Assembly (NCBI GenBank): GCA_947626355.1 | Contig: CANQRV010000002.1 | Span: 1 to 64,000 of the forward strand | Direction of reading: 5' to 3' | Source: an uncultured Muribaculaceae bacterium | GTDB taxonomy: Bacteria; Bacteroidota; Bacteroidia; Bacteroidales; Muribaculaceae | DNA: 64,000 bases | Shown: one piece after another, positions 7,819 to 55,739 of the stretch | Numbering within the stretch: the stretch's first letter is position 1 | Layout of the letters: each line of letters begins with the position of its first letter | Notes under the pieces: generated by a model | Told to the model about the DNA's origin: nothing | Databases searched by the model: none | The model's input: the letters and a program-made list of their open reading frames with translations, nothing else | Program-made: the position numbers and the translations under genes

Positions 7819-8376
7819 TCAGTGCACAATTACTTTCCTGGAGCCGTTTTCGTCGTTGAGTATATAGAACCCTTTTCCCAGCTTCCGGATATCTGACTCT
7901 TTAAGACCGGATGCTTTTTTCACTCCATCTAACGTAAAGACATCAAACAGTCTGTCGTTTTCACCGGCATTCTCTATCCCTGCTCCTGGTATGTTGGCTA
8001 CGCGATAAGTGAAATCGGCCTCTACGGGATATTGGTAGATTCCTGTCGCCATATCAAAGAAATTATTGTCCAGAAACCGTTCAGACTCAATCTCCATATT
8101 GCAATGATTTGGATATCCGAAGTATTCCAAAAACAGATAACCATTATCAGGAGTGTTATCATTGATTTTGATATCATAGCCTCTTCCTACCAGAAATGGT
8201 GTGAATAGATTTATGGGTTCTCCGGTTTTTGTGAATAATACAGAGGAATTATCTGCCATTGCACAATGCTGCGCATAGCTGGAGGCAATCTCTGCATGTT
8301 CCGGAATGAATAACTCTTCGCCCGAGTAGAATACTTTATCATATTCTTCCTCGATATTGAAATCTATTCTTGACAT
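7819..8376 (-). pseudogene. C-terminal part of a frameshifted BspA-like LRR protein, T9SS-like tail
   Basis: This 185-codon frame is open from well before its ATG: upstream codons read KISEESYKEIFSPWIEDMSRIDFNIEEE, exactly where the neighbouring frame (8417-8896) stops. It is the continuation of that leucine-rich-repeat protein after a one-base shift at an A6 run (8429-8434 region). The last ~45 residues (FDVFTLDGVKKASGL, then LGKGFYILNDENGSRKVIVH) look like a type IX secretion sorting tail: a beta strand, a turn, GFYIL and a basic strand. The frame is otherwise intact, so the gene was broken recently, is read by slippage, or carries a sequencing error. Confidence 0.65.
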
Positions 8377-8416
8377 GTCTTCAATCCATGGACTGAAAAT
8401 CTCCTTATAGCTTTCT

Positions 8417-8896
8417 TCAGATATTTTTTGGGAATGATATGTTCTTTAGTGTCAGACCTTTGAAAGACGATGCGATGTCAAAAAATTCTGGACACGATGT
8501 CGATTTAAAAGCTATATTCTCAATCCCGGAGTCAGCAAAAGCATTATTCTGTATTAGTTCCAGAGAATCAGGAAGGGTGATTCCCTTTAATGAGATGCAC
8601 CCATAGAATGCATCGTTGCCGATATGTTTTATCGTTGAAGGCAGCTCTATGCCGGTTAGCCAGTAGTTGCAGTAGAATGCCTTGTCCAAAATATATTCAA
8701 CAGGAAGTGTTACACCGTTGTAATTTATACTCTCGGGGATGATGACAAAGTCGGGATTGCTTTCTTCAGATAGAGACATGACTTCGGCATGCTCATATTG
8801 AATACGATAGACTACACCATCGATCGCTTCCTCTGAAAAGGCATATACCGAAATCACCGATATGAGCGCCATCAATATAGATATGATTCTCTTCAT
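8417..8896 (-). pseudogene. N-terminal part of a frameshifted BspA-like leucine-rich-repeat protein
   Basis: A 159-residue frame with a clear signal peptide (MKRIISILMALISVISVYAF) followed by BspA/TpLRR-type repeats: LDKAFYCNYWLTGIELPSTIKHIGNDAFYGCISLKGITLPDSLELIQNNAFADSGIENIAF. BspA-like proteins are surface or secreted binding proteins common in gut Bacteroidales. The frame ends at SFPKNI-stop inside CCCAAAAAATATCTGA; removing one A restores SFPKISEESYKEIFSPW, a normal repeat ending, and joins it to the 7819-8376 frame. A +1 shift is needed; the CCCAAAA heptamer favours -1 and does not help. Confidence 0.65.
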
Positions 8897-8911
8897 GACT
8901 CACCTCCTTCT

Positions 8912-9193
8912 CTATCGAGTAACACCATATACCATGCAATTTCCGATATAAATCTTTTCGGTTCCGTGTGAATTGCTTTCGCTATCATCCCTATATGAAG
9001 GATTTTCGTCAAAAGCGGGGACTCTGGTCCCGCCGTTAAGTTGGCCCATGAAGTCATCGGCCACTTTAATCGCTGATAGAAAGGCTTTGCTTTCCTTTTG
9101 CGGCGAGACATCCTCATTTGATGGCATCTCCAGGTGCTCGCATGCTCCCAGAACGATACCAAGAATCAAATAGAAAAGGAGTCTTGATTTCAT
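8912..9193 (-). CDS. Small lipoprotein, possible C10-peptidase-propeptide-like
   Basis: A 93-residue protein with a lipoprotein signal (LLFYLILGIVLGAC, lipobox LGAC), so it should be lipidated and exported. After the lipobox, KAFLSAIKVADDFMGQLNGGTRVPAF faintly resembles the propeptide or Spi-type inhibitor of streptopain (C10) peptidases in Bacteroidales, but there is no peptidase domain. An overlapping frame (8893-9162) runs further to the next start; a frameshift near the C-terminus cannot be excluded. It lies 15 bases upstream of the LRR gene on the same strand and may share its message. The similarity is weak, so the function is left open. Confidence 0.55.
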   Translation of the reverse strand: MKSRLLFYLILGIVLGACEHLEMPSNEDVSPQKESKAFLSAIKVADDFMGQLNGGTRVPAFDENPSYRDDSESNSHGTEKIYIGNCMVYGVTR

Positions 9194-11120: not shown

Positions 11121-12818
11121 CTATCTTATCACTAACTTACGCCCGTTGCGGATGTATATGCCCGGAGCAATGAGGTCCGGATCCACCCTGCGTCCCTGAA
11201 GGTCATAGATGACGGAAGACTCAGCTCCGGAGGCTTCAACCTCTTCAACGCTGTTCGGACTCGAGATGCAATCAATGCCCGAGGCCCTTGTCTCGCCTCC
11301 TCCATCGTAGAAAAGCTGTATGCTGGCCTCAATTGCACTGGCTCTAGGTGGATAATAGATGCACCATTCGTCACCTTCCTGCAGGATATCCGCGCCCTGT
11401 GTATAAGAATCGCAGTTATAGTTGTATGGGATATCGCTGGTGACATACTCGTTTCCGTCCTCATCCTTCAGAGCCGCCTCGACCGGTATGCCGTCGTTGT
11501 AAAGGATACGGTAATAAAGCTTCGAGCTGTCCATCAGCATCCCCTCCTCGCTTATGTCCGACAGCATGTAGTATGATCTATATGCATAGTCTCCATCGAC
11601 CCACTTCGTTCCGGTGAATCTCGGGTTCACGGGTGTGAGAGGCACGTCCTGCCATGGAGATACCGCGGCATCTATGAATACGGACGGTTTGCTGAAACAC
11701 ATGTCGACAAGCGGCATGGAGACCGTCTGGTCGACGTCAGTGGCCTGATAGAATGCCGCGGAGGGATTGGACAGCGTCAGTTCTGTGGCGTCGTAGTCGA
11801 ACTTAAGATCATCTTCGACAGGGGTAAGCACGAGCTTCTTCTCGAATTTCTCCCCTTCCACGCTCCAGTCATACACGGCGAGGCGTTTCAATCCCGACCG
11901 TGATGACGACACGTCTCCACGGTGGAATACCGCCTTTCCTCCTTCCAGGGTGCCCTTAAGCCAGCCCCGGCCGCTGTCGGGGAATAGGTTCCTGACATAT
12001 ATAGAGTCGCCGTGCGTGGCCAATGTGACGAAACGACCCTGCGTCTGCGGGTAGCTGTTATTCCCAGCCAGCGAGCCATAGGCTCTGGAGAGAACCTGTG
12101 CACGGCTGAAGGAGGCGTCGGCCGGAGGTGCGTATATTGACTCCTCGACGGGCTCTATCTCCGTCCTGTACACCATATAGTTGTCCACTGGTTCGAGTCT
12201 GCCGTTTTCCGAGACTTTGAAGAATGCATACTTGTCATTGATCTCCATGAAGAAGTCATGTGGATAGTCTGCCGGAAGGGGATTGGCATCATCATAGCCT
12301 CCTTTGACGTGGCAAATAATGAACACTCCAAACGGTGGCTTAGTATGGTCTACAAGATCGCGATTCATCTGCGGGTCCAAATAATATCCACCATCACAGG
12401 TCTGACATAACTCTACAGGATGCATATATACAGGAGAACCGTCAGCAAGGGTCCCAATCTCAGTGTGTATTCTAAAAAGACGGTAGGGCTCTGAATAACC
12501 ATCATCAAGGGCAGTACGCGGCGTTACCCATAGAGGCTCAATGCCGCTCATCATTCCATTGAATGAAAAATCGATGTAATGATAGGAGGCGTAAATTTCG
12601 ATGTAGTCGGTGATAGTGAAATTAGACAGGGATCCATCGGGGTTGATTCTTACTGCCTGGCTGGTACGCTTGCAGAGATGGAACACGCAGCCAGGCGCGC
12701 CGTCGTTGCCTTCTCCCGGCGGGAGCGTGGCTCCCACTGTCGGAATCAAGGGAACGGCATGGCATCCAACAGCAATCGCCACCATGGCAATTGTCAGTAG
12801 TATCTTTATCATAAGCAA
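11121..12818 (-). CDS. Exported protein of unknown function with T9SS-like C-terminal tail
   Basis: A 565-residue protein with an N-terminal signal (IKILLTIAMVAIAVGCHAVP); the cysteine makes lipidation possible. The end, SSVIYDLQGRRVDPDLIAPGIYIRNGRKLVIR, closely fits the type A sorting signal of the type IX system (VYDLQGRRV, then GIYI, then a basic strand). The central part has regularly spaced aromatic and acidic strands (for example SFNGMMSGIEPLWVTPRTALDDGYSEPYRLFRI) suggesting beta-sandwich structure, but I do not recognise a family. It is divergent from the glycoside-hydrolase-like gene at 13042, with ~220 AT-rich bases between them, and lies inside the cassette bounded by the two 45-bp repeats. 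Confidence 0.75.
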   Translation of the reverse strand: MLMIKILLTIAMVAIAVGCHAVPLIPTVGATLPPGEGNDGAPGCVFHLCKRTSQAVRINPDGSLSNFTITDYIEIYASYHYIDFSFNGMMSGIEPLWVTPRTALDDGYSEPYRLFRIHTEIGTLADGSPVYMHPVELCQTCDGGYYLDPQMNRDLVDHTKPPFGVFIICHVKGGYDDANPLPADYPHDFFMEINDKYAFFKVSENGRLEPVDNYMVYRTEIEPVEESIYAPPADASFSRAQVLSRAYGSLAGNNSYPQTQGRFVTLATHGDSIYVRNLFPDSGRGWLKGTLEGGKAVFHRGDVSSSRSGLKRLAVYDWSVEGEKFEKKLVLTPVEDDLKFDYDATELTLSNPSAAFYQATDVDQTVSMPLVDMCFSKPSVFIDAAVSPWQDVPLTPVNPRFTGTKWVDGDYAYRSYYMLSDISEEGMLMDSSKLYYRILYNDGIPVEAALKDEDGNEYVTSDIPYNYNCDSYTQGADILQEGDEWCIYYPPRASAIEASIQLFYDGGGETRASGIDCISSPNSVEEVEASGAESSVIYDLQGRRVDPDLIAPGIYIRNGRKLVIR

Positions 12819-13041
12819 TTGTTTTATGAAATAATTTTCAAAAATAACACAAAGTTTGCAATCTATAGTCTTGGTGAATTTGTTTTATCATTAATTAACA
12901 AAATTATACAACTGTTTGTGTGAAATTAACATTCCTGATGGAGGATCGACCGGGTGGAATGGCTGAACTAAAGGAAATATTGTTTATACTGGCAAACCAT
13001 TTCATCATCATGTTTGTTTGTGATTGAAAAGCCTATATATA

Positions 13042-14406
13042 ATGGAACCCATTTATACAAACATCTATATCTCTCCTTCTCCAGGTATGTTTCCCATTAT
13101 TGCCTGGGGTGGATTCTGTATTGATCAGGAAAGGACAATCCGAGATGAATATGGTAATACCTCCGCGGAATTCAAGGCATTCTTGAAGAAGGAAATAGAC
13201 TATATCAAGGATATGGGATTCACGACAGCTCTTAGGCCGTTATGGGAATCCTTTGAATATGTGCAACCCTCTCTTGGAAAGTCCGGTCTCGGCATCATAG
13301 GACAGACTCCAGCTGACAAATTGGCATCAACTGAGGTGTTCTCTTCCTATATCGCAGGTTTTCTTAACTGCAACACCCTTAATGAGATCGTTGGATGGCT
13401 GATAGTCGACGAGCCGAAGTTCAATCAATTAGAGCTATGCAGGGATATTCAACAGATTCTGATCAAGAAGCTCTACAGACTTAAGTCAATGAATATATGG
13501 ATTAACTGCATATGTCAGGAAGACAGTAAGATAGAAGATAATAAAGAGGAAGAAGACAAAGGTTATACTGGCGGTTACAGCTATCCCGGATATCTTGACT
13601 ATATCCAGAAACTTCTCTCTCCTCAGGTCTGGAGTTTTGATCAATACCCCATACGCATTAAGGATAACGGGGATGTATTTGTACAGTCCGGCTATTTCAG
13701 GATTTTGAGATGTTACATGCTACAGTCAAAGAAAACAGGGCGTCCATTCTGGGCATTCTGTCAGTGTCTATGCATTCTGCGCTCGAAAAAAGGTGTGACA
13801 AATGGCATAACAACTCCTAAACCATCATATCCCTTAATGAGATTCGAGGCTTTCTGCTCACTTGCTTATGGGGCGCAGGGTCTTGAATACTGGAGCTTGA
13901 CAACAAGAGGAATGGTTGTAGAATCATCCGGACTTCCTCGTTTCGGAGATGCTCCACTTAATGAGAAGGGAGACATACATGACATGTCGATATATAATGC
14001 CATCAAGACGCTCAACTCCGAGATCAGGAAAGGACAGTCGATATTTCTTGGAGCGGTGCCGAAGAAAGTAAGGCACACAGGAGAAAAGACGTGGGAAGGT
14101 GTTGACTATTATCAGCCGGGAGAGAGTTTCGGACCGCTTCACAGCATGGTCACCACTTCTAAAGGAGCGATAGTGTCATGGCTCGTGAATGGCAGCGACA
14201 ACTATCTGCTGATAGTGAACCATGACCCCCTAAACTCGCAAGCCATTACACTCTATGTAGACAGTCTTACCACTATATGGAGAGTGTCTTTGACGAAGCA
14301 ACCGGACTTCAGTGTCTTCCATGAAGGAGATGAATCAAAACCGCCGCAGTCTGTCTTCATAAAGCAGACACTCGAGACTGGAGGTTACGTGTTGTTGAAA
14401 TGGTGA
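13042..14406 (+). CDS. Glycoside-hydrolase-like (clan GH-A type TIM barrel) protein, paralogue 1
   Basis: A 454-residue protein without a signal peptide. Features suggesting a TIM-barrel glycosidase with a C-terminal beta-sandwich are VGWLIVDEPKF (D123-E124-P125, comparable to the strand-4 acid/base of clan GH-A), PQVWSFDQYPI, GRPFWAFCQCL, RFEAFCSLAYGAQGLEYWSL and the terminal NYLLIVNHDPLNSQAITLYV, ending GGYVLLKW. The same chain of motifs occurs in 53070-54458 and 54477-55739. The ATG before EPIYTNIYISPSPG is chosen over a TTG six codons earlier; SPSPG aligns with SPTP in the paralogues. Base composition is AT-richer than the core genes, suggesting acquisition. The substrate is unknown and activity is inferred only from motifs. 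Confidence 0.65.
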   Translation: MEPIYTNIYISPSPGMFPIIAWGGFCIDQERTIRDEYGNTSAEFKAFLKKEIDYIKDMGFTTALRPLWESFEYVQPSLGKSGLGIIGQTPADKLASTEVFSSYIAGFLNCNTLNEIVGWLIVDEPKFNQLELCRDIQQILIKKLYRLKSMNIWINCICQEDSKIEDNKEEEDKGYTGGYSYPGYLDYIQKLLSPQVWSFDQYPIRIKDNGDVFVQSGYFRILRCYMLQSKKTGRPFWAFCQCLCILRSKKGVTNGITTPKPSYPLMRFEAFCSLAYGAQGLEYWSLTTRGMVVESSGLPRFGDAPLNEKGDIHDMSIYNAIKTLNSEIRKGQSIFLGAVPKKVRHTGEKTWEGVDYYQPGESFGPLHSMVTTSKGAIVSWLVNGSDNYLLIVNHDPLNSQAITLYVDSLTTIWRVSLTKQPDFSVFHEGDESKPPQSVFIKQTLETGGYVLLKW

Positions 14407-23518: not shown

Positions 23519-24106
23519 ATGATCTACTATATCTCGGGCAAAATCGCCGAGCTCACACCCACCTATTGCGTGATAGACTGCGGAGGGATAGGGTATGATA
23601 TCAACATCACCCTCATCGACTACAGCACCCTCAATTCCGGAGCGGCCGGCTCCGCGAAGCTCTTTATCCACGAGAGCATACGCGAGGACGCCCATCTGCT
23701 CTACGGATTCCTCACCGAGACGGAGCGCGAGCTCTTCCGCCTGCTTATAGGAGTGAGTGGCGTAGGCCCCAACACCGCCCGGCTAATCCTCTCCGCCCTC
23801 ACCGCCGACCAGCTCCGCGGGGCCATCGCCTCCGGCAACGACTCCGCCCTAAAGGCCGTGAAGGGGGTCGGTGTCAAGACCGCGCAAAGAATAATTGTAG
23901 ACCTGAAGGATAAAATAAAAGATGATGCAGGAGCGTTTATTTCAAGTGCTCCTGTGGCCGGCGAGGCCTACGACGACGCCCTGGCTGCCCTGGTGATGCT
24001 CGGCTTCACCCAGCAGCAGAGCCAGAAGGCGCTGAAGAAGCTTTTCGCCTCCGACCCGGCCATGAGCACGGAAAAGGCCATTAAAGAGGCCCTGAAGTTG
24101 CTCTGA
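23519..24106 (+). CDS. ruvA: Holliday junction branch-migration protein RuvA
   Basis: A 195-residue RuvA that binds four-way junctions and recruits RuvB. OB-fold domain I ([30 protein letters not shown]), tandem helix-hairpin-helix motifs ([38 protein letters not shown]) and the C-terminal domain III ([22 protein letters not shown]) are in order. The stop is followed immediately by the sprA ATG (TGAATG), so the two share a message. Confidence 0.97.
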
Positions 24107-27100
24107 ATGAACTGCCTGCGCGATCTCGCCACATATCTCGGACTCAAGCGGCTGCCGGTCACCACGGCGGTGGTTCTTTTCGTGGCCTGCTGTCTGGCGC
24201 TCGCCGTCACGGCGCAGCAACAACAGAACTCTCGGCTCAAGCCTCCGCCACCTCCATTCACACCCGACATCAATCCGGCCGCCGGCCTTCCCGACAGCCT
24301 CGCCCTTCCGGCTCCGGTGGCGCCTACGCTTCCCACTGAGTATGACGATTATGTGGGGCGCGAGTACGCGGCCGACCTCTCCGACCCCTCCAACATCAAG
24401 ACGGAGATCGTCTACGATCCCGCCACCAAGCTCTACTATATCCACACCAGGCTCGGCGACAACGACATCCTCACTCCCTATACGCTCACCCCAGAGCAGT
24501 ATAACGAGATGATGACGCGCCGCGAGATGTTCGGATATTTCCAGCAGCGCAACGCGGAGAGCTTCCTTCAGAAAGACAAGGAGCCGTTCAACATCCTCGA
24601 CATGAATTTCTCGCTCGGCCCTCTCGAGAAGGTATTCGGCCCCGGCGGCGTGCGTCTCACCACGCAGGGCTCCATCCAGGTGTCGATGGGCATCAAGAGC
24701 AACAAGACCGACAACCCCGCGTTGTCGCTAAAGTCGCGTCGCAAGACCTTCTTCGATTTCGACCAGAAGATACAGGCCACCATCGCAGCCTCCGTCGGCG
24801 ACAAGATGAAGTTCAACATGACCTACAACACCGACGCGACGTTCGATTTCGACTCCAAGAACCTCAAACTCAACTATGAGGGGAAGGAAGACGAGATCAT
24901 CAAGAACATCGAGGCCGGTAATGTGAGCATGACCACCGGCTCCAGTCTGATACGCGGCGGTACGAGCCTCTTCGGTATCAAGACGAAACTCCAGTTCGGC
25001 AAGCTTACACTCACCGGGCTCGTGAGCCAGCAGAACAGCGAGTCGAAGACCGTCAATACCCAGGGCGGCGTCCAGACCACCAAATACAGCATCAAGGCCG
25101 ACAACTACGACGCGAACCGCCACTTCTTCCTCGCACAGTATTTCTACGACAACTACGACCAGTTCGCATCCCGCCTCCCGCATGTCTCATCGGGCATCAA
25201 CATCACGCGCATCGAGGTGTGGATCACCAACAAGAACAGCCGCTTCGAGGAAGCCCGAAACTTCGTCGGATTCATGGACCTCGGTGAGAATACCCGTCTC
25301 GCCAATGATTTCTGGGTGCCCGACATGTCGACTGCCGTGCCCTCCAACCAGAGCAACAACCTGCTCAGCGTGATAAAGAACGATTATCCAGGCGCCCGTG
25401 AGATCAGTCAGGTCACGCAGGTGCTCGCTCCGCTCCAGGCCTACGGCATCACAGGCGGTCGCGACTATGAGAAGGTGGAGAGCGCAAGGCTTCTGAAATC
25501 GTCGGAATATACCCTCAATTCCACTCTCGGATACATATCCCTCAAACAGGCCCTCAACACCGACGAGGTGCTTGCCGTGGCATACGAATACACCTACAAC
25601 GGCCGCGTCTATCAGGTGGGCGAGTTCTCCAGCGACATCTCCAACACCTCGCAGAGCCTCTACCTCAAGATGCTCCGCTCCACCACCGTGGCTCCAGAGC
25701 TCCCGATGTGGAAGCTGATGATGAAAAACGTCTACTCCCTCGGCGCCTACCAGCTCCAGAAGAAGAATTTCAAGCTCAATATCAAGTATCTGAGCGACAC
25801 CACCGGCACCGAGATCACTTATCTCCCCATAGGCGAGATCGCCAACCAGCCCCTGCTCCAGGTGATGAACCTCGACCGCCTTGACTCCAACCAGGAATCC
25901 AATCCCGACGGATTCTTCGATTATGTGGAGGGATACACCGTGCAGCCTTCCAACGCCAAGATCATCTTCCCGGTGGCTGAGCCTTTCGGCGCGTGGCTCG
26001 AGCGTAAGATCGGCAATCCGGAGCTCGCAGCGCAATACGTATATAAGGAGCTCTACGACTCGACGCTGGTGGTCGCCCGGCAGTTTGCCGACAAGAACAA
26101 GTATTCGCTCAGCGGCGAATACCAGGCGTCGAACGGCGCCACCATACGCCTCAACGCCATGAACGTGCCCCGCGGATCGGTAGTGGTCACCGCCGGCGGC
26201 GTCGTTCTCACCGAGAACAGCGACTATACCGTAGACTACAGCATGGGTATAGTCACCATTACCAACCAGAGCATCATAGACTCCGGCACAAACGTCAGCG
26301 TAACCCTTGAAAACCAGTCGATGTTCAGCATGCAGCGCAAGACGCTGCTCGGCCTCGACGCCCAATACCGATTCAACAAGGATTTCACCCTTGGCGGTAC
26401 TATCCTGAATTTCTCCGAAAAGGCCCTTACCGAGAAGGTGAGCATCGGCGACGAGGTGATCAACAACACCATGTGGGGCCTCAACCTCAGCTACAACAAG
26501 GAGTTCATGTGGCTCACCAACCTCATCAACAAGGTGCCCACCATCAACGCCACGGCTCCCTCGGCGTTCCGCGTCAACGCTGAGTTCGCTCAGCTCGTGC
26601 CCCATAAGCAGAAGACCGGCTCCAACAAGGGCTCATCATATATCGACGACTTCGAGAACACGCAGATCGGCCTCGACCTGCGTTCCCCATACTCGTGGTT
26701 TCTCGCCTCCACTCCCTACGATCCCGGCAGCGACCCGATGTTCCCGGAGGCGTCGCTTTCTAACAACGTCGACTACGGCAAGAACCGTGCCCTGCTCAAC
26801 TGGTACTACATCGACCGCATGTTCACCCAGAAGAACTCCTCGCTCCTTCCCGGCTACCTCAAGAACGACCTCGAGCAGCTCTCCAATCCTTACGTCAGGG
26901 AAGTCACCGTCAATGAGATCTATCCCGGCCGCGACATCAATTACGGCGAGGCAAACTATATACAGACCCTCAACCTCTCCTTCTATCCCAAGGAGCGCGG
27001 CCCTTACAACCTCGACGCCGACAATATCGACGACCAGGGAAATCTCCTCTATCCAGAGAAGCGCTGGGGGGGCATTATGCGAAAGCTCGACAACACCAAT

Positions 27101-30100
27101 TTCGAGACATCGAATGTGGAATACCTCCAGTTCTGGCTCCTCGACCCCTTCCTCGACGAGAAGAATCCAAACCGCGAGGGGGGCGATCTCTACATCAATT
27201 TCGGCGAGATCAGCGAGGACGTCCTCAAGGACGGCATGAAAAGCTATGAGAACGGTCTGCCTGTCGACGGCGACAACCAGTTCATATCAACTACGGTGTG
27301 GGGACGCGTCTCCACGCAGAACTCGCTGACCTACGCTTTCGAGAACACTCCCGACGCACGCCTGCTTCAGGACGTCGGCCTCGACGGACTCCCCGACGAG
27401 TCGGAGTTCGAGTTCGACTCATATAAGGACTATCTCGACCGGCTGCGCGCGAAGCTCCCGGCCTCAACCATCGAGACAATGCAGGCAGACCCGTTCTCGC
27501 CGATGAACGACCCTGCCGGCGACGACTACCATTTCTTCCGCAGCAACTACTACGACGACATCCGCGCCTCGATCCTCGACCGCTACAAGAGATATAACGG
27601 CGTGGAGGGCAACTCCCTCTCTCCCGACCAGAGCTCCAACCCCTATTACCAGTCGGCGCGCAGCGTCCCCGACGTGGAGGACGTCAATCAGGACAACACC
27701 CTCAATGAATACGAGAGGTATTTCGAGTATAAGGTCTCCATCCGCCCCGAAGACCTGGTGGTCGGCAAGAACCACATCACCGACGTGCAGATCTCAAACC
27801 AGCGCACGCGCGACGGCAAGTCGATAGAGGTGAGATGGTACCAGTTCAAGATTCCCCTGACCCAGCCCGACCGCGTCGTCGGCAACATCCGCGACTTCTC
27901 CACCATCCGCTTCGCGCGTATGTTCATGACCGGATTCAAGGAGACAACCCACCTTCGTTTCGCATCGCTCGAGCTCATGAGAGGGGAGTGGCGCGACTAT
28001 AAGTTCAATCTTAACAGCCGCAACGACTCACCCGCGGAGGGCGAGCTCGACATGTCGGTGGTCAATATCGAGGAGAACGACCAGCGCGAACCCGTCAACT
28101 ACGTGCTCCCTCCGGGCGTCGACCGTATCCAGGACCCCGGCCAGAGTCAGGCCACCCAGCTCAACGAGCAGTCGCTCTCCCTCAAGGTCACCGGTCTCCA
28201 GCCCGGAGACGCAAGAGGCATCTATAAGAACACGCAGCTCGACCTGCGCATATACCGACGTCTCCAGATGTGGGTACATGCCGAGGCCCTCATCGACAAC
28301 ATCACCAACACACGCAACGGAGACCTCGCGCTCTTCGTGCGTCTCGGCTCCGATGTGAAAAACAATTATTACGAGTACGAGATACCCCTCGACCTCACTC
28401 CGCCGTCGAACGACTACAATAACTTCAACAGCGCCGACCGTGCGAAGGTATGGCCTATCAACAATTTCCTCAACGTGCCCTTCGAGGTCTTCACCGACCT
28501 GAAGACAGAGCGCAACCGCGCAAAGAGCGAGGGTGCCGACGGCGTGGGCTACGGTGTGCTCTATTCCCATCTCGACCCCGACAACGACCGCAACACGGTC
28601 TCCGTGCTCGGCAACCCAAGTCTCAGCGACGTCAGGGTGATGCTTATCGGTATCCGAAATAAGTCGAACTCCGTGAAAGACGGCACCATCTGGGTCAACG
28701 AGCTTAAGGTGACCGAATTCAATGAGGACGGCGGATGGGCGCTCAAGACCAACATGAACCTCTCGGTCAGTGACCTGGCCATGGTCAACTTCACATACAA
28801 CAAGGAGACCGCCGGTTTCGGCGGCGTCGACCAGGGACTCTCGCAGCGCCGACTCGACGACTACGAGCAATACAACCTCGCGGTGCAGGGCGATGTGGGC
28901 AAGCTCCTCCCCGAAAAGGCACAGCTGCAGGCCCCCGTCTACTACTCGCTCTCGAAAGACAAGGTGACACCCAAATACAACCCGCTCGACCAGGACATCC
29001 TCCTCAAGGATGCCCTCGACGCCGCAGTGACCAAACACGAGAAAGACTCAATCAAGAGCTTCGCGCTCACCACCAAGCGCGTGGAGAGTTTCTCGGTATC
29101 AGGCCTCCGCTTCAATGTAAAGAGCAAGAATCCGATGCCATGGGATCCGGCCAACTTCACCGTCTCATTCTCTTTCAACAAGCAGAAGGACGTCGATCCT
29201 ACTACCGAATATGAGGTCACCAACGACTATCGTGGCAGCTTCCAGTATTCCTACAGCCCTTATGTCAAGGGCTGGAAGCCGTTCTCCTTCATAAAGGGTA
29301 AGGGGAAGACCGCGAAGTGGCTCCGCGACTGGGAGCTAAACTGGCTCTTCAACAACCTCACTTTCTACACCAGCATGACCCGCTACTACTATGAGCAGCA
29401 GACACGCAGCGAGGTCGACATGAATTTCCAGCTCCCCGTGCAGGTCAGCAAGAATTTCCTCTGGGACCGCCAGCTCAGCCTCACATGGAATTTCACCCAG
29501 TCGCTCAACTTCTCCTTCTCAAGCAACACTACTGCAAGAATCGAGGAGACGGTCGGCGCCGTCAACAAGCGTCTGTTCCCCGACAAATACCGCGACTGGA
29601 AGGATACCGTATGGTCGAGCATCAAGGGGCTCGGCACCCCCTGGAACTACAATCAGACGTTTACCGGTTCCTACCGCGCCCCCTTCAACAAGATAGCATT
29701 CCTCGACTACCTGACCGCCAACGTGACCTACAATTCCACCTACAAGTGGGACAAGGGCGCCACCGTCGACGGCCTCTATCTCGGCAACAGCATCCAGAAT
29801 CAGTCGACCTGGAACGCCGACGGTCGCCTCAATTTCGAGACACTGTTCAATAAGTCGAAATATCTCCAGGAGATCAACAAGCGCTTTTCCTCCTCGCAGA
29901 AGGGTAACCCGCGAAACCAGGGGCGCAATAAGGACAACACCCCGAAGACTCCCAAGAGGAACGAGCCGAAGAAATACGAGCGCGCGATGTATCTGAGCAT
30001 GGACACAACCACCACCATCCGACACAATATGCGCACCCGCAAGCTGAAGATATCCGCCACCCTCGACGACGGCACTCCCTATGTGCTCAAGACGAAGATC

Positions 30101-31624
30101 AAGGACGACAACAACATCGAGATCCTCAACCGAGACAGTGTGCTCGTGAAGATCCTTATCCGCGAGCAGTCGAAGAAGGAGAGCCGCAATTTCGCCAGCG
30201 AGCTGGCCGCGTATTCGCTCCGCTTCCTCATGATGCCGCGCACCCTGTCCATCCGCTGGCGCAACAGCCATTCGCTCAACCTCCCGCAGTTCTCGCCCAA
30301 TATCGGCGATGTCTTCGGACAGTCCACCAAGTATGGTCCCATGTCGCCGGGTCTCGACTTCGCGTTCGGCTTCTTCGACGAGAGCTACGTCAACAAGGCC
30401 CTCGACCGGGGCTGGCTCATCACCAACTCCGAGCAGACCTCGCCGGCTATCTGGAACCAGGGCCAGGAGTTCAACTTCGAGCTCACACTCGAGCCGATCC
30501 GGGGACTGAAGGTGACGCTCACCTCCAACCTCACCGACAACAAGACGCGTCAGATGCAGTTTATGTTTGCCGGCATGCCTACGTCGCATTCCGGATCATA
30601 TACCCGCACCCACATAGCGCTCGCCTCGGCCCTCAAGGGCAGCAACGCGGAAGACGGCTACAGCTCGGAGGCTTTCAGCAAGTTCCTTTCCTACATACCC
30701 GTCATCGCCGAGAGGGTGCAGGGGCAGTATGACGGAATGTCATATCCCACCACCGGCTTCATGGAGGGCAACGCTCTCGGCGGCACTCCTTTCAATCCCC
30801 AGAACGGTGTCGTTTCCTCTACGAGCAGCGACGTGCTGATTCCGGCCTTCATCGCCGCCTACAGCGGCTACGACCCCCATAAGGTGACTCTCCAGCATTT
30901 CCCGGGTCTCGAATCGATGCGCCCCAACTGGAAGGTGACCTACGACGGTTTCCTCCAGATGGGCAACATGAGCAAATGGTTCAAGGCGTTCACCCTCAAC
31001 CACGCCTATCAGTGCACCTACTCTATCGGTTCTTATTCGAGCTACATGAACTGGGTGAGCGTCGGCGGTGACCTCGGCTTCATCCAGAACGAGCTCACCC
31101 AGATGCCGGTGCCGTCGTCGCCCTTCAACATCTCCTCTGTGGCCATCACCGAGAAATTCGCGCCGCTGATCGGAGTGACATTCACGCTCCACAACGACAT
31201 GACGTTCAATGCCGAATACCGCGATGCACGCACCCTGAACCTCAACTCCTCGGCCGGTCAGATTGTGGAGACCACCAGCAAGCAGTTCTCCATAGGCGCC
31301 GGCTACAAGATCGCCAATTTCAACAAGATCATAAAGATCGGCAGCCAGCAGGGCAACACCAACAATGACCTCTCGATCAATCTCGATGTGGCGCTCAGCA
31401 ACAACCAGAGCCTGATCCGCAAGATCGAGACAGCCTACACCCAGGCCACTCAGGGCACGAAGACCTTTTCAATCAATTTCATGGCCAGCTATCAGATGAG
31501 CCGCCGTCTCACGGTATCGGCCTTCTTCGACCATCAGGTCAACACGCCGCTCGTCTCCAACGCCTCCTATCCGACCTCCAACTCCAACTACGGCATCGCC
31601 TTCAACCTCTCCCTCGCCCGCTGA
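24107..31624 (+). CDS. sprA: T9SS outer-membrane translocon protein SprA/Sov
   Basis: A 2505-residue outer-membrane protein, the giant single-chain beta-barrel that forms the protein-conducting pore of the type IX secretion system. A signal segment (TTAVVLFVACCLALAVTA) is followed by a proline-rich stretch and Sov/SprA-type blocks (YNTDATFDFDSKNLKLNYEGKEDEIIKNIEAGNVSMTTGSSLIRG; FRVNAEFAQLVPHKQKTGSNKGSSYIDDFENTQIGLDL; YLQFWLLDPFLDEKNPN). Full length and uninterrupted. It lies directly behind ruvA, an arrangement known from other Bacteroidetes. It would export the proteins with sorting tails at 7819, 11121 and 51328. The other T9SS genes (porV, gldKLMN, porT) are not in the window. Confidence 0.96.
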   Translation: MNCLRDLATYLGLKRLPVTTAVVLFVACCLALAVTAQQQQNSRLKPPPPPFTPDINPAAGLPDSLALPAPVAPTLPTEYDDYVGREYAADLSDPSNIKTEIVYDPATKLYYIHTRLGDNDILTPYTLTPEQYNEMMTRREMFGYFQQRNAESFLQKDKEPFNILDMNFSLGPLEKVFGPGGVRLTTQGSIQVSMGIKSNKTDNPALSLKSRRKTFFDFDQKIQATIAASVGDKMKFNMTYNTDATFDFDSKNLKLNYEGKEDEIIKNIEAGNVSMTTGSSLIRGGTSLFGIKTKLQFGKLTLTGLVSQQNSESKTVNTQGGVQTTKYSIKADNYDANRHFFLAQYFYDNYDQFASRLPHVSSGINITRIEVWITNKNSRFEEARNFVGFMDLGENTRLANDFWVPDMSTAVPSNQSNNLLSVIKNDYPGAREISQVTQVLAPLQAYGITGGRDYEKVESARLLKSSEYTLNSTLGYISLKQALNTDEVLAVAYEYTYNGRVYQVGEFSSDISNTSQSLYLKMLRSTTVAPELPMWKLMMKNVYSLGAYQLQKKNFKLNIKYLSDTTGTEITYLPIGEIANQPLLQVMNLDRLDSNQESNPDGFFDYVEGYTVQPSNAKIIFPVAEPFGAWLERKIGNPELAAQYVYKELYDSTLVVARQFADKNKYSLSGEYQASNGATIRLNAMNVPRGSVVVTAGGVVLTENSDYTVDYSMGIVTITNQSIIDSGTNVSVTLENQSMFSMQRKTLLGLDAQYRFNKDFTLGGTILNFSEKALTEKVSIGDEVINNTMWGLNLSYNKEFMWLTNLINKVPTINATAPSAFRVNAEFAQLVPHKQKTGSNKGSSYIDDFENTQIGLDLRSPYSWFLASTPYDPGSDPMFPEASLSNNVDYGKNRALLNWYYIDRMFTQKNSSLLPGYLKNDLEQLSNPYVREVTVNEIYPGRDINYGEANYIQTLNLSFYPKERGPYNLDADNIDDQGNLLYPEKRWGGIMRKLDNTNFETSNVEYLQFWLLDPFLDEKNPNREGGDLYINFGEISEDVLKDGMKSYENGLPVDGDNQFISTTVWGRVSTQNSLTYAFENTPDARLLQDVGLDGLPDESEFEFDSYKDYLDRLRAKLPASTIETMQADPFSPMNDPAGDDYHFFRSNYYDDIRASILDRYKRYNGVEGNSLSPDQSSNPYYQSARSVPDVEDVNQDNTLNEYERYFEYKVSIRPEDLVVGKNHITDVQISNQRTRDGKSIEVRWYQFKIPLTQPDRVVGNIRDFSTIRFARMFMTGFKETTHLRFASLELMRGEWRDYKFNLNSRNDSPAEGELDMSVVNIEENDQREPVNYVLPPGVDRIQDPGQSQATQLNEQSLSLKVTGLQPGDARGIYKNTQLDLRIYRRLQMWVHAEALIDNITNTRNGDLALFVRLGSDVKNNYYEYEIPLDLTPPSNDYNNFNSADRAKVWPINNFLNVPFEVFTDLKTERNRAKSEGADGVGYGVLYSHLDPDNDRNTVSVLGNPSLSDVRVMLIGIRNKSNSVKDGTIWVNELKVTEFNEDGGWALKTNMNLSVSDLAMVNFTYNKETAGFGGVDQGLSQRRLDDYEQYNLAVQGDVGKLLPEKAQLQAPVYYSLSKDKVTPKYNPLDQDILLKDALDAAVTKHEKDSIKSFALTTKRVESFSVSGLRFNVKSKNPMPWDPANFTVSFSFNKQKDVDPTTEYEVTNDYRGSFQYSYSPYVKGWKPFSFIKGKGKTAKWLRDWELNWLFNNLTFYTSMTRYYYEQQTRSEVDMNFQLPVQVSKNFLWDRQLSLTWNFTQSLNFSFSSNTTARIEETVGAVNKRLFPDKYRDWKDTVWSSIKGLGTPWNYNQTFTGSYRAPFNKIAFLDYLTANVTYNSTYKWDKGATVDGLYLGNSIQNQSTWNADGRLNFETLFNKSKYLQEINKRFSSSQKGNPRNQGRNKDNTPKTPKRNEPKKYERAMYLSMDTTTTIRHNMRTRKLKISATLDDGTPYVLKTKIKDDNNIEILNRDSVLVKILIREQSKKESRNFASELAAYSLRFLMMPRTLSIRWRNSHSLNLPQFSPNIGDVFGQSTKYGPMSPGLDFAFGFFDESYVNKALDRGWLITNSEQTSPAIWNQGQEFNFELTLEPIRGLKVTLTSNLTDNKTRQMQFMFAGMPTSHSGSYTRTHIALASALKGSNAEDGYSSEAFSKFLSYIPVIAERVQGQYDGMSYPTTGFMEGNALGGTPFNPQNGVVSSTSSDVLIPAFIAAYSGYDPHKVTLQHFPGLESMRPNWKVTYDGFLQMGNMSKWFKAFTLNHAYQCTYSIGSYSSYMNWVSVGGDLGFIQNELTQMPVPSSPFNISSVAITEKFAPLIGVTFTLHNDMTFNAEYRDARTLNLNSSAGQIVETTSKQFSIGAGYKIANFNKIIKIGSQQGNTNNDLSINLDVALSNNQSLIRKIETAYTQATQGTKTFSINFMASYQMSRRLTVSAFFDHQVNTPLVSNASYPTSNSNYGIAFNLSLAR

Positions 31625-51327: not shown

Positions 51328-53073
51328 TTAGATGCTGATTTTTTCCGTCTTGCCGGAAGCCGTCATGATGATGTATATCCCGGAAGGCAGAGCCCTCCTC
51401 AACTCTCCGTAAGCTATTGCGTCAGCAGCAATCGTTCCCTGCACGGTATATACAATGCATCGCTCATCCGAGGCTATCTGTCCATCGTCGGGCATCTCGT
51501 CAACCCCATCCTCGGTAAGGTCCTCCACAATGGGACCGACCTTCGCCCACAGGCTGTTCCGGTAGGCTTCTCCGCAACCCCGCATCACATGCACCGTAAT
51601 CTGCCCGAGCCTGTCAGGACAATAGTCTGATTCGCCAAGGCCGAGCGGATAGTTGTCATCGAGTTCCGGCGGCCTCTTGCGCAGCATGTACATGTCGCTA
51701 AGCGACGAGCATCCCCTGAATGCCTGGTAGATGACCCATGTGTCCTTCTTGACGGTGACACTCCGGAGATTGTCGCAACCGCGGAACACGTTATCGTCGA
51801 GCATCGTGATGCCGAGCGGAAGCGTTACCTCAAGCAGACTGTCGCAGTCCTCGAATGCGTTGGGTTCTATGGTCTTTACTCCATCTGGAATATCGATATA
51901 CCTCATCTCCGCGTTTGAAAAGGCATCCTCGCAGATTCTCGTTATATGCGGCTGGATATGGAACGTCTCGGCCCGGGCGCCATAAAACCATTTCTTCCCG
52001 ATTTTGGTTATATGCTCCGGCAATATCACATCCATGAGCCCGGTGGATTCCGCGAAATATCCCTCTCCGGTATCTTGCATTGATTTCGGAATCACGATAG
52101 GAGTGAAGCAAGTCAGTCCATAAAATACGTAACCTGTGAGGTATGTATCATCTGGAAGCACTATTTCATCCAGATGCAATCCGTTAAAGGCACATCCCCC
52201 AATGGATTGTAGCGATGAAGGAAAGTTTATATGGGTCAGTGAAGAGTACCTGAAGGCACCATCACGTATACCAAGCACACCTTCGGGAACATCGAAATGG
52301 GATCCGGACTTGTTCTGCGGATATAGTACCAACCAATCCAAACAGTCATTTTCGATATTATGAAAATATAGTACATCGTCGACTGCTCCATAAGTTATGT
52401 TTTCCGGATGCACCGTTATTGAGGTGAGCTCTGGAAGGTAGGAGCTGGTTAAATGTCCCAGACTATATATTGTTGATGGGATGTAAAGCGTTGTGATGGG
52501 CGCTCCGTCAAAATCATCGGAACTGGTTACACGTCTCACTCCCTCCGGAATAACGAAATTCGTTTCCTGTTTATTCTTGGGATAGAGCTGCAGGCAATAG
52601 AGTGCGCCGTCATCATCAAGTGTATAGAGGACGCCGTCGACCGACCGGAACTTTCTGTTTTCAGGATCCACTGTTATTGATTTGAGCCGGGGCATCCATG
52701 AACTGACCAGCTCACCCAGTTTTTCTATTGTAGCAGGAATGGACAGTGAGGCGATTGGCTCGTCTTCCAGCGAGTAGAGTAGCTGGCGGCACCCTCCAGA
52801 ATAAAATGCCAGATCCTTGATCTCTGTAACCTCATAAATCTCCCCCTCATATTCCACTGACGGAGGTATCACCAAGTCATAGTCCTCCGGGTAATGGGTC
52901 CCATCCAGATAGAATCTGGATATGAAATGCGCCTCATTATCCGATGTCAGCTCATACCAGCTGTCGCCGATCTCGACTAAGATGTCTTCTTCCGCGCATG
53001 TCGTTTGAGGGGATATTATGGCAGCTATGACGATTGTCAGCCATCCTGTCTGTCTCAACATATTGACTTTCAT
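51328..53073 (-). CDS. BspA-like leucine-rich-repeat surface protein with T9SS-like tail
   Basis: A 581-residue protein with a signal peptide (TGWLTIVIAAIISPQTTCA) and 8-10 TpLRR/BspA repeats: LSIPATIEKLGELVSSWMPRLKSITVDPENRKF, TTLYIPSTIYSLGHLTSSYLPELTSITVHPENITY, AFRYSSLTHINFPSSLQSIGGCAFNGLHLDEIVLP, AFEDCDSLLEVTLPLGITMLDDNVFRGCDNLRSVTV. The end, LPSGIYIIMTASGKTEKISI, resembles a type IX sorting tail. Such proteins bind host or bacterial surfaces. The ATG overlaps the upstream stop by four bases, so it is the last gene of an operon with the two glycoside-hydrolase-like genes. An intact relative of the frameshifted gene at 7819-8896. Confidence 0.8.
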   Translation of the reverse strand: MKVNMLRQTGWLTIVIAAIISPQTTCAEEDILVEIGDSWYELTSDNEAHFISRFYLDGTHYPEDYDLVIPPSVEYEGEIYEVTEIKDLAFYSGGCRQLLYSLEDEPIASLSIPATIEKLGELVSSWMPRLKSITVDPENRKFRSVDGVLYTLDDDGALYCLQLYPKNKQETNFVIPEGVRRVTSSDDFDGAPITTLYIPSTIYSLGHLTSSYLPELTSITVHPENITYGAVDDVLYFHNIENDCLDWLVLYPQNKSGSHFDVPEGVLGIRDGAFRYSSLTHINFPSSLQSIGGCAFNGLHLDEIVLPDDTYLTGYVFYGLTCFTPIVIPKSMQDTGEGYFAESTGLMDVILPEHITKIGKKWFYGARAETFHIQPHITRICEDAFSNAEMRYIDIPDGVKTIEPNAFEDCDSLLEVTLPLGITMLDDNVFRGCDNLRSVTVKKDTWVIYQAFRGCSSLSDMYMLRKRPPELDDNYPLGLGESDYCPDRLGQITVHVMRGCGEAYRNSLWAKVGPIVEDLTEDGVDEMPDDGQIASDERCIVYTVQGTIAADAIAYGELRRALPSGIYIIMTASGKTEKISI

Positions 53074-54458
53074 GATACCTCTCCTATAAATTCATAAATC
53101 AGATAGCCGCCCGGAATGAGCTGCCTCTGGATTGTCTGAGTATTGATCTGTTTCTCCTTACAATGCTCGCCGTGGGAATTGGTCGGCGTAAGCTCGTAGA
53201 TGACTAAATCCGGCTTAAATGTGATTTTCAAGAACTGATAGCTCTCTATTTTGTGGCTGACGATGATCATGTAGTTGTGCCCGTTTGTTCGGAGCTGCGT
53301 CACTAATGCCCTGCCACCTACACCCATAATGCTTTGAATTGCCCCTATGCCATTTTTCCCGAGAACGGGTCCCCCGTAATTCTGCCCGACCTGTGCCCAC
53401 TTTATCAGTTTGGAATTGACGAACACCTTGCTGTATTGTTTAATCTCATAGTTGACCTCTCTGGCGAAATACCATGCAGGCATCCTGGTTCCGTATTTGT
53501 CTACGAGAGCAGAGGTATTGACCTCTGATGTTTCGTTATGCTGCTGCATATAGTTCCAGTAGGCTATACCCTGTGCTCCGAATGCAAGTGCGGAGAACGC
53601 CTCGAACCGGATATATGGCTCCAGGGCGGCGGGATAAAGCGTGTCGCCGCTGATGAACTCCATACTTTGCACGTAAGCCCAGAATACTCCGTGGGTGGCC
53701 GTTGCGCGCTCTTGAAATATGTTTAGGTCTTCGTAGAATGTCTGATATAAGACAGAGAGCTTGCAGTTGTCATCTACATTGCACTTATTGTTGATGAGGC
53801 ATGACTTCTGGGTCACCGGATAGAGGTCGTAAGACCATAGGTTGGGCTTGAAGTTGTTCTGGAATAAATCCAGATAATCCTGATAGGGATTATATTCTGT
53901 TTTCTCACCCTTGGTTCCCACGAGGTTAACTTGGATAGGCCTTTTCTGCCCGTCGGTCTTTAAGAGATTATATAGGTTGACGAGGCAGAAGGATGAGCTG
54001 TCACTTGGTTTTTCGAGTTGGGAATACGTTGGCTCATCCTTCAGATACCATCCCTTTATGGCATTTGAGTTGTTCTTTTTAATTATGCCATCTTTATTTA
54101 CATAGGTTTTGGGAATACTGAAGAATTCAAAGAAGTCTTTCGCGTCCTTCATTCCGGTTTGGTCATTGCCCGAAGGAAGGTCAAAATAATAACAGCCGAC
54201 AATGATACTTATATTACTATTGGCTGCATAGCCGAGAGAAGTGGCTGTCGCATCTTTCTGCTCAATTGAAGTATGGCCTCCATATAGGTGTGCCGCGTTG
54301 AAGTTGCATTCCTTAAGTTGCACGAAAGTCTGTTTGGGAACGGTTACACTTGGATGAAGTCCATTCACGATGCCTAACGCAACAATGGTAATCTCATCCG
54401 GGGTCGGCGATTTATAAGGATTGGCGGCTGTCGGTGAATTGAGCGGTTTTGTTTCCAT
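53070..54458 (-). CDS. Glycoside-hydrolase-like protein, paralogue 2
   Basis: A 462-residue relative of the 13042 gene. There is no signal peptide; an N-terminal ANPYKSPTPDEITIVALG is shared with paralogue 3. TIM-barrel marks are IKGWYLKDEPTYSQL (D141-E142-P143, putative acid/base glutamate), PNLWSYDLYPVT, HGVFWAYVQSMEF, IRFEAFSALAFGAQGIAYWNY; the C-terminal sandwich has NYMIIVSHKIESYQF and ends GGYLIYEF. The middle contains a cysteine cluster (SCLINNKCNVDDNCK) absent from the others. It starts 18 bases behind paralogue 3 and is coupled to the BspA-like gene. AT-rich. The substrate is unknown. Confidence 0.65.
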   Translation of the reverse strand: METKPLNSPTAANPYKSPTPDEITIVALGIVNGLHPSVTVPKQTFVQLKECNFNAAHLYGGHTSIEQKDATATSLGYAANSNISIIVGCYYFDLPSGNDQTGMKDAKDFFEFFSIPKTYVNKDGIIKKNNSNAIKGWYLKDEPTYSQLEKPSDSSSFCLVNLYNLLKTDGQKRPIQVNLVGTKGEKTEYNPYQDYLDLFQNNFKPNLWSYDLYPVTQKSCLINNKCNVDDNCKLSVLYQTFYEDLNIFQERATATHGVFWAYVQSMEFISGDTLYPAALEPYIRFEAFSALAFGAQGIAYWNYMQQHNETSEVNTSALVDKYGTRMPAWYFAREVNYEIKQYSKVFVNSKLIKWAQVGQNYGGPVLGKNGIGAIQSIMGVGGRALVTQLRTNGHNYMIIVSHKIESYQFLKITFKPDLVIYELTPTNSHGEHCKEKQINTQTIQRQLIPGGYLIYEFIGEVS

Positions 54459-54476
54459 ATATCTTTGTTTTTATTC

Positions 54477-55739
54477 TTAGTCCCATCTGTATATGATATA
54501 GCCTCCTGCCGGAAGCGTGACGTTTAGCGTGAGGGGAGTCTCCGTGGGTATGGCCGGTGATGGATACGGTGTCTCCGTCAGGTCCTTTAGCTGGTAGATG
54601 CACCAGTACCGGCTGAAGTTTAGCGTCATGGCTTGTGATGCCGTAACGCTATGGTTCACTATCACGAGATAGTTCTTTCCATCATTGTTGATATGTGATA
54701 TGAGCACACCTGGGTCTTCTGACTGGATGTTCATTAGGGGGCCGAAGGACTCTGATCCGGAAATCCAGCATGTCATCGGCAACTTGTTCTTGCCGGTGTG
54801 TCTGCATGCGACGAGGCGACATCCCGCGAAGATGAAATTATATGACGCGATTTCGCGGTTGACCGTCTGCGCGTAGTTCCACAAACCGGTTTTCGCGCCT
54901 TCCGCTGTCACAAGGCCCTCAGTCTTGTCGGAGTCAGGCCGGTAACGCCAGTAGACGATTCCTTGAGCACCGTAGGCCAACGCGGAAAAAGCCTCGAACC
55001 GTATCATGGCTTCGGTTATGCGGGAGTCGACGGTTGCGAGTCCCGACGGACTGACCGACCTGATGTATGACCACAAAGGCACGTTGGTGTACCGCGACAT
55101 GAAAGAGAACGTCTCGAGACCTCTATAGAAGTTGGCATACCTTGTGGAAGGTGATTGCGCGGCATCAACGAATGAAAAATATCTATACGGCCAGAACGAC
55201 GGATTCAGACTGTTCTGAAAGTCCTTGATATATTGGCTGTAATCATCATTCTCTGGTATGCCGATAAATTCCTGGAGCGGTGTAAGACCTGTAAATACGG
55301 GATGGACTGCCTTAATGATTTCATTATTCTTAGGTGTGTCGGTATCGCGTATTATGGTGACGAGATCATGGAATGTGCTTCCGGCCTTAACCTCGGGCCA
55401 GCTTACAGTATCTTTGAGTAGCCATCCGCCGAGTCCGTCAAGACCTTTGTTATCTCCGACGAACTCTTCACATTGAGCCGATTGTGTTAGACGGGGATTG
55501 CCGACAAAGGGATGTATGCCTTTGCTGTTGCAGTTGGTAAGCAGCGTGGCGAGTGAATTTCCTTCGGTATTTATCAACGCAGAGTTGAATCCGCAGTCGT
55601 GCAGTTCCGTCAGCACCTGTAGAGAGGGTGCTGTCGTGCCTTGATTCGGATACATAGCCGCAATGGTGATTCTCCCCGGAGTAGGCGAGTTGTAGAGGGG
55701 ATTGGCCGGTGTGGGAACGTTATGAGTGTCTGTCGCCAT
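54477..55739 (-). CDS. Glycoside-hydrolase-like protein, paralogue 3 (probable inactive member)
   Basis: A 420-residue relative of the genes at 53070 and 13042, with the same skeleton: NPLYNSPTPGRITIAAM, then IRFEAFSALAYGAQGIVYWRY, a C-terminal NYLVIVNHSVTASQAMTL and the ending PAGGYIIYRWD. Where the paralogues have KDEP/VDEP it has GWLLKDTVSW, so the putative acid/base glutamate is a threonine; where they have W-S-Y/F-D-x-Y-P it has WPYRYFSFV, losing the aspartate too. This suggests a pseudo-enzyme or a changed chemistry. There is no signal peptide. First gene of the three-gene operon; ~175 AT-rich bases without a recognisable gene separate it from sbcC. Confidence 0.65.
   Translation of the reverse strand: MATDTHNVPTPANPLYNSPTPGRITIAAMYPNQGTTAPSLQVLTELHDCGFNSALINTEGNSLATLLTNCNSKGIHPFVGNPRLTQSAQCEEFVGDNKGLDGLGGWLLKDTVSWPEVKAGSTFHDLVTIIRDTDTPKNNEIIKAVHPVFTGLTPLQEFIGIPENDDYSQYIKDFQNSLNPSFWPYRYFSFVDAAQSPSTRYANFYRGLETFSFMSRYTNVPLWSYIRSVSPSGLATVDSRITEAMIRFEAFSALAYGAQGIVYWRYRPDSDKTEGLVTAEGAKTGLWNYAQTVNREIASYNFIFAGCRLVACRHTGKNKLPMTCWISGSESFGPLMNIQSEDPGVLISHINNDGKNYLVIVNHSVTASQAMTLNFSRYWCIYQLKDLTETPYPSPAIPTETPLTLNVTLPAGGYIIYRWD

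Follow-up and report, generated by a model that had tools for sequence, protein, structure and literature searches.

Why would genes for glycosidase-like proteins without recognisable signal peptides lie beside, and in one case overlap, the gene of an exported protein? The question is raised by a 64,000-nucleotide stretch of DNA from an uncultured Muribaculaceae bacterium (positions 1 to 64,000 of contig CANQRV010000002.1; hereafter the window). A preliminary description, made from the letters of this stretch, had proposed that three such genes form one family, that they are paired twice independently with exported proteins carrying T9SS-like tails, and that the arrangement might be a surface-modification or glycan-use module. 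The genes concerned are listed in Table 1.

Table 1. Features of the window that bear on the pairing
Feature	Coordinates	Strand	Remarks
Gene A, leaderless GH-like paralogue, predicted pseudoenzyme	54477..55739	-	Opens the cassette; Asp-Glu motif lost
Gene B, leaderless, GH-like, predicted catalytic type	53070..54458	-	GWYLKDEPT (D141, E142) and WSYDLYP intact
Overlap of B stop and LRR start	53070..53073	-	4 nt, ATGA
LRR partner, exported BspA-type LRR_5 protein	51328..53073	-	Signal peptide; T9SS-like C-terminal end GIYIIMTASGKTEKISI; PF13306, E 6e-41
Gene C, more distant leaderless family member	13042..14406	+	DEP kept; divergent from exported neighbour
Exported neighbour of gene C	11121..12818	-	Signal peptide or lipoprotein-like start; T9SS-like end APGIYIRNGRKLVIR; divergent from gene C
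SprA/Sov, T9SS outer-membrane translocon	24107..31624	+	2505 aa; TIGR04189, 2680 bits

Genes A, B and C are homologous, with pairwise identities of 25-27%, and have in common an S-P-T/S-P motif, the segment RFEAF.SLAYGAQG and a GGY end. The shared skeleton described earlier holds for B and C; A departs from it, with GWLLKDTVS in place of GWxxxDEP and WPYRYFS in place of WSYDxYP. When every possible start was scored with a simple hydrophobicity rule, all three proteins lacked a signal peptide, in agreement with the preliminary description. An additional TTG start lies upstream of gene C, at 13024. Hidden upstream signal peptides were also rejected for the leaderless members in general, since scoring of all in-frame starts revealed none.

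NCBIfam searches of A, B and C returned nothing useful and no family name. The best sequence-profile relative of the family was PF02449 (GH42), matched at E<0.001 by 13 of 33 members. Two window proteins fell below the Pfam cut-off for this profile (18.2 and 15.5 versus 21 bits), and gene C had no PF02449 match. A profile search of the PDB recovered a GH42 chain (5xb7, E 6e-8) and matched no PslG or GH39 chain. Family members are 420-460 aa long, compared to 640-720 aa in the matched GH42 chains.

Structure prediction bore out the earlier call of a TIM barrel in the two proteins that we modelled. AlphaFold2 confidently folded both B (pLDDT 90.9, pTM 0.92) and A (pLDDT 88.1, pTM 0.90) as a (beta/alpha)8 barrel followed by a C-terminal beta-sandwich. 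Foldseek matched them to barrel glycosidases of clan GH-A type and others, namely GH30, GH164, GH5, GH42 and GH39 structures (E 1e-11 to 1e-7, TM 0.4-0.6, ~10% identity); those of B were GH30, GH164, GH5 and GH42. The top PDB match of A was PslG (9g17, E 1.4e-11), a GH39 member of clan GH-A that has the same barrel plus beta-sandwich; at ~10% identity this is a match of fold only.

The predicted active site is unusual. The acid/base Glu, which in clan GH-A lies at the end of strand 4 in an NEP-like motif, is found as DEP in B and C and is absent in A, and the DEP of B aligned by profile to the NEP acid/base motif of the GH5 mannanase 3ziz. The family's RFEAF.SLAYGAQG.YW corresponds to the final barrel segment of GH42, but the GH42 acid/base motif is replaced by DEP. 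The nucleophile Glu of clan GH-A lies on strand 7; at its apparent position, placed by motif comparison with GH42 rather than on superposed structures, B and C have Gln (PFW/VFWAxxQ). The same presumed position is Gln in distant relatives too and varies in other members; in a PslG-type enzyme a Glu would be expected there. With its Asp-Glu pair and an apparently absent nucleophile, the family could be a new one among the glycoside hydrolases.

The surroundings of the window's family genes do not resemble those of a glycan-use system. Their flanks hold housekeeping genes (sbcCD, aminopeptidase P, TGT, LptF/G, a tricorn-like protease and a redoxin). A polysaccharide utilisation locus was rejected for the window, as these flanks have no SusC/SusD pair or sugar transporter; because no sugar transporter flanks the genes, the glycan-use function suggested earlier is unlikely. 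The module may have a surface-modification role. At the cassette insertion site, after sbcC, four relatives carry unrelated genes, and no empty site was readable. The claim that the pairing arose twice independently in the window was not supported either. Gene C belongs to another subfamily and diverges from its neighbour, a protein of no Pfam or NCBIfam family, making that case much weaker than the one of A, B and the LRR partner; both tails are motif-based. Elsewhere in the window, an LRR_5 match broken by TGA spans short ORFs at 7819-9193 (-), next to a small lipoprotein-like ORF; this is probably a decayed BspA-type gene.

Examination of related contigs revealed that the pairing is far beyond a coincidence of one window, and that the recurring unit is A-B-LRR, a co-inherited cassette. 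In the window's genome (G000; 3.09 Mb, 148 contigs, 16 family-matching places, some of them broken), the order degenerate A, intact B, LRR occurs in the window (55739-51328) and on contigs C71 and C39, and decayed versions are present on contigs C1 and C88. The ATGA overlap between B and LRR, already noted for the window, is present in all three intact units and suggests translational coupling. We rejected a fusion of B and LRR by frameshift, which would set the LRR signal peptide mid-protein. Identities among the three units are of similar size for A (50-62%), B (57-65%) and LRR (52-62%), which points to co-divergence. The LRR proteins of cassettes resemble one another (34-66%, with high scores) more closely than they do the other LRR_5 proteins of the genome, where about half of the LRR_5 genes have no family neighbour. 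A-B pairs or B-LRR units were also found in six further genomes (G006, G009, G011, G016, G079 and G099) in varying order, with LRR genes between or before A and B in G009 and G006. A B-LRR unit in another genus (L153) shows this overlap as well, with a tail that is almost identical, and in G068 single leaderless members lie beside a tailed protein five times. On contig C1, a GH36 alpha-galactosidase (L036:13025-15229) adjoins the decayed cassette, which is double. A description of such a cassette was not found in the literature searched, which covered few subscription papers.

Nearly all partners are BspA-type LRR_5 proteins. The window's partner scored 139.7 bits against PF13306 (cut-off 27.7), and the cassette partners of its genome (E 1e-33 to 1e-52) are ordinary members of that family; we know of no described BspA protein that is coupled to a leaderless GH-like pair. 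Exceptions include the neighbour of gene C, for which no Pfam or NCBIfam family matched, L041:1702, L066:2730, L074:3726 (Big_2 only) and a CotH protein in G016. In that genome, the neighbour of one A-B pair (L045:11120-12654) is a CotH-type kinase whose T9SS-like tail is separated. The export signal of the window's partner is an N-terminal hydrophobic stretch recognised heuristically. Its T9SS-like tail, and that of the neighbour of gene C, come from a regular expression, with no match of either protein to PF18962 or TIGR04183; among the partners tested, TIGR04183 was matched by L041:1702 only. Since SprA is encoded in the window, a T9SS export route exists in this organism; PorU is encoded elsewhere in the genome. 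The ORF directly before the SprA gene (23519-24106) is RuvA-like by eye.

We asked how the leaderless state relates to the neighbour by scoring the nearest non-family gene of leaderless members of at least 240 aa (n=46) and of signal-peptide-bearing members (n=31). Simple rules, a heuristic for signal peptides and a regular expression for T9SS tails, served in place of SignalP and a curated CTD model. An exported neighbour with a T9SS-like tail was present for 36 of the 46 leaderless members, while only 4 of the 31 members with signal peptides had one (Fisher p ~1e-8, uncorrected for kinship); such a tail occurred in 4 of 146 background genes. Of the ten leaderless members without such a neighbour, several are at the end of a contig. 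Across nine genomes with both kinds of member, the Mantel-Haenszel odds ratio was ~22. Phylogenetically independent contrasts all pointed in the same direction (3.6 to 0 on average) and were too few for significance (p 0.125). In 34 of 45 cases the partner shared the strand of the family gene, 25 times on its downstream side; the other 11 partners were on the opposite strand. The repeated pairing proposed from the window stands for leaderless members, with mostly BspA-like partners, but does not extend to members with signal peptides. Roughly nine genomes of the genus show it, as does one from another genus. Leaderless members were also more acidic (p 6e-5); they were slightly richer in Cys, a difference that was not significant (p 0.09).

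A second regularity concerns the pairs themselves. Each of the 14 complete tandem pairs combines a copy in which the Asp-Glu pair is intact with a degenerate one, as does a 15th pair (G016-1); in four of the 14, the LRR gene lies between the copies or contig context splits the pair. The naive chance of one intact copy per pair is 4e-4, uncorrected for kinship. Outside the pairs, the Asp-Glu pair is kept in 32/32 signal-peptide members and 13/14 unpaired leaderless members. Its loss occurred at least three times in a quick tree and at least four times in a careful one. Ten A proteins group in a single clade (95/96), within which two subclades pair with B1 (100/98) and B2 (100/100), respectively; gene C groups with L041_208 (100/99). 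B2-type members (L052:8573-10366, L050:108-1958 and L112:7590-9284) have Cys-rich N-terminal extensions of ~50-85 aa before the barrel, possibly metal-binding.

The family was present in 29 of 111 genomes of the genus and, at a stricter threshold, in 28 of 397 genomes of a wider sample of Muribaculaceae. Gene calls came from a home-made model, and the assemblies are fragmented and mostly metagenome bins; in the contig search, a single-protein query gave no matches and an alignment query did. Named relatives are mainly from Muribaculaceae assemblies, with distant ones in Paenibacillus, Tyzzerella, Planctomycetes, Verrucomicrobia and Armatimonadetes. DEP, S(Y)DHY and (I)VQA motifs are common to L125 and L128-L144, from Planctomycetes, Verrucomicrobia, Armatimonadetes and Paenibacillus. 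Together with the window proteins, these relatives make up what is, by sequence, a widespread and unnamed glycoside-hydrolase-like family.

The signal-peptide members are frequently part of exopolysaccharide loci, together with genes for Wzz-type kinases, flippases, glycosyltransferases and Glf (UDP-galactopyranose mutase). Because of this setting, the export signal was probably lost: the family would descend from exported glycosidases of exopolysaccharide loci whose signal peptide disappeared repeatedly. This is the simplest history; the careful tree contains at least nine changes of signal-peptide state, a count that leaves their direction unproven. The B1 proteins group with L037, one signal-peptide member of the same genome. 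In sister genera, the same GH domain is part of exported proteins of 900 aa with a T9SS-like tail (L123, L154-L157, L160 and L161, from other Muribaculaceae genera). At L123:1530-9848 and L154:2400-10703, in another Muribaculaceae genus, three such fusions lie in tandem beside parA/parB-like genes.

These fusions tie the domain to T9SS surface display, and with the probable export of ancestral members they fit a reading in which A and B still work outside. The two proteins would leave the cell non-classically, by lysis or in vesicles, and the LRR protein would be the anchor or receptor that replaces the T9SS tail of the sister genera. Repeated loss of the signal peptide is odd for a protein needed outside, and the N-termini carry no visible alternative export signal. 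We consider this reading unlikely.

The resemblance of A to PslG raises another explanation. Intracellular polysaccharide processing has been proposed for PslG (PMC9075953). A and B could likewise process or sense an exopolysaccharide or lipid-linked glycan inside the cell, with the co-regulated LRR protein binding or organising the same polysaccharide at the surface. The signal-peptide relatives share the exopolysaccharide-locus setting of PslG, and the G016 pairs lie, by eye, near capsule-type genes. The leaderless members, unlike PslG-type enzymes, lie beside LRR surface proteins with no EPS operon: the window cassette, and others by eye, are among housekeeping and not polysaccharide genes. 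As the coupling to LRR would also go unexplained, this reading is improbable.

Alternatively, the signal-less copies could be remnants in decay, carried along passively in variable islands of surface-protein genes. Some cassettes are indeed decayed, with several members frameshifted or truncated, and the distribution within the genus is patchy. Yet where dS was measurable, though near saturation, dN/dS was ~0.14-0.24 for A, B and LRR, indicating that all three are under purifying selection. With intact ORFs, the DEP of B preserved, a recurring gene order and overlap, and an enzyme/pseudoenzyme composition in every complete pair, a non-adaptive origin is very unlikely. Antagonism or self-protection units (effector, immunity protein and adhesin), to which multi-copy, fast-diverging and patchy cassettes with pseudogenes might point, are scarcely credible, since we saw no toxin domain, secretion-system genes or polymorphic toxin layout, and all copies have the GH-like barrel.

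We tentatively favor a model, possible rather than probable, in which a cytosolic enzyme/pseudoenzyme pair helps make or modify the partner surface protein. A and B, having no recognisable export signals, would remain cytosolic and work together as a hetero-complex. Degenerate A would recognise or hold the partner or a glycan, and intact B, if active, would trim or transfer a sugar. Before the cognate LRR protein is exported through Sec and then the T9SS, their action would prepare, modify or protect it. We favor this helper role because the unit recurs, leaderless and signal-peptide members differ so strongly in their neighbours (also within genomes), and all 14 pairs are intact/degenerate. 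It is further suggested by the A subclades that track B1 and B2, purifying selection, the overlap in three cassettes, the mutual closeness of the LRRs and the acidity of the leaderless members.

There are also precedents for such a helper role. Streptococcal and lactobacillar serine-rich-repeat adhesins are encoded with the transferase GtfA and its partner GtfB, which chaperones the adhesin (PMC6973325), and Asp1-3 are intracellular partners of GspB (PMC5578698). As proposed here for A and B, these systems place a cytosolic carbohydrate-active enzyme and a chaperone-like partner beside a surface adhesin gene. The resemblance is one of logic, and we claim no homology: the known systems are Gram-positive, use glycosyltransferases rather than hydrolase folds and export by accessory Sec.

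Several observations count against the helper role. The cassette contains no glycosyltransferase, SecA2 or other export part. The exported, T9SS-tailed GH fusions of sister genera imply a surface role for the domain. Decayed cassettes, the variable order in G009 and G006, the opposite-strand partners and the small number of independent contrasts also weigh against it. To our knowledge, protein O-glycosylation in Bacteroidetes is periplasmic. It is doubtful that the cassettes represent the full form of the model, an undescribed Gram-negative system for surface-protein maturation. In that form, exported glycosidases from EPS loci would have been recruited repeatedly as an enzyme with a glycosidase fold and its pseudoenzyme twin, both cytosolic, to act on a specific BspA-type T9SS cargo ahead of export.

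The family offers a testable case in which an export signal was apparently lost repeatedly in step with the gain of a surface-protein neighbour, and in which enzyme/pseudoenzyme twins have arisen several times. We know of no cytosolic preparation of surface adhesins in Bacteroidota; if the pair does act on its partner, the cassettes would be an example. Extending from Muribaculaceae to Planctomycetes, this unnamed family is itself a candidate for a new family of glycoside hydrolases.
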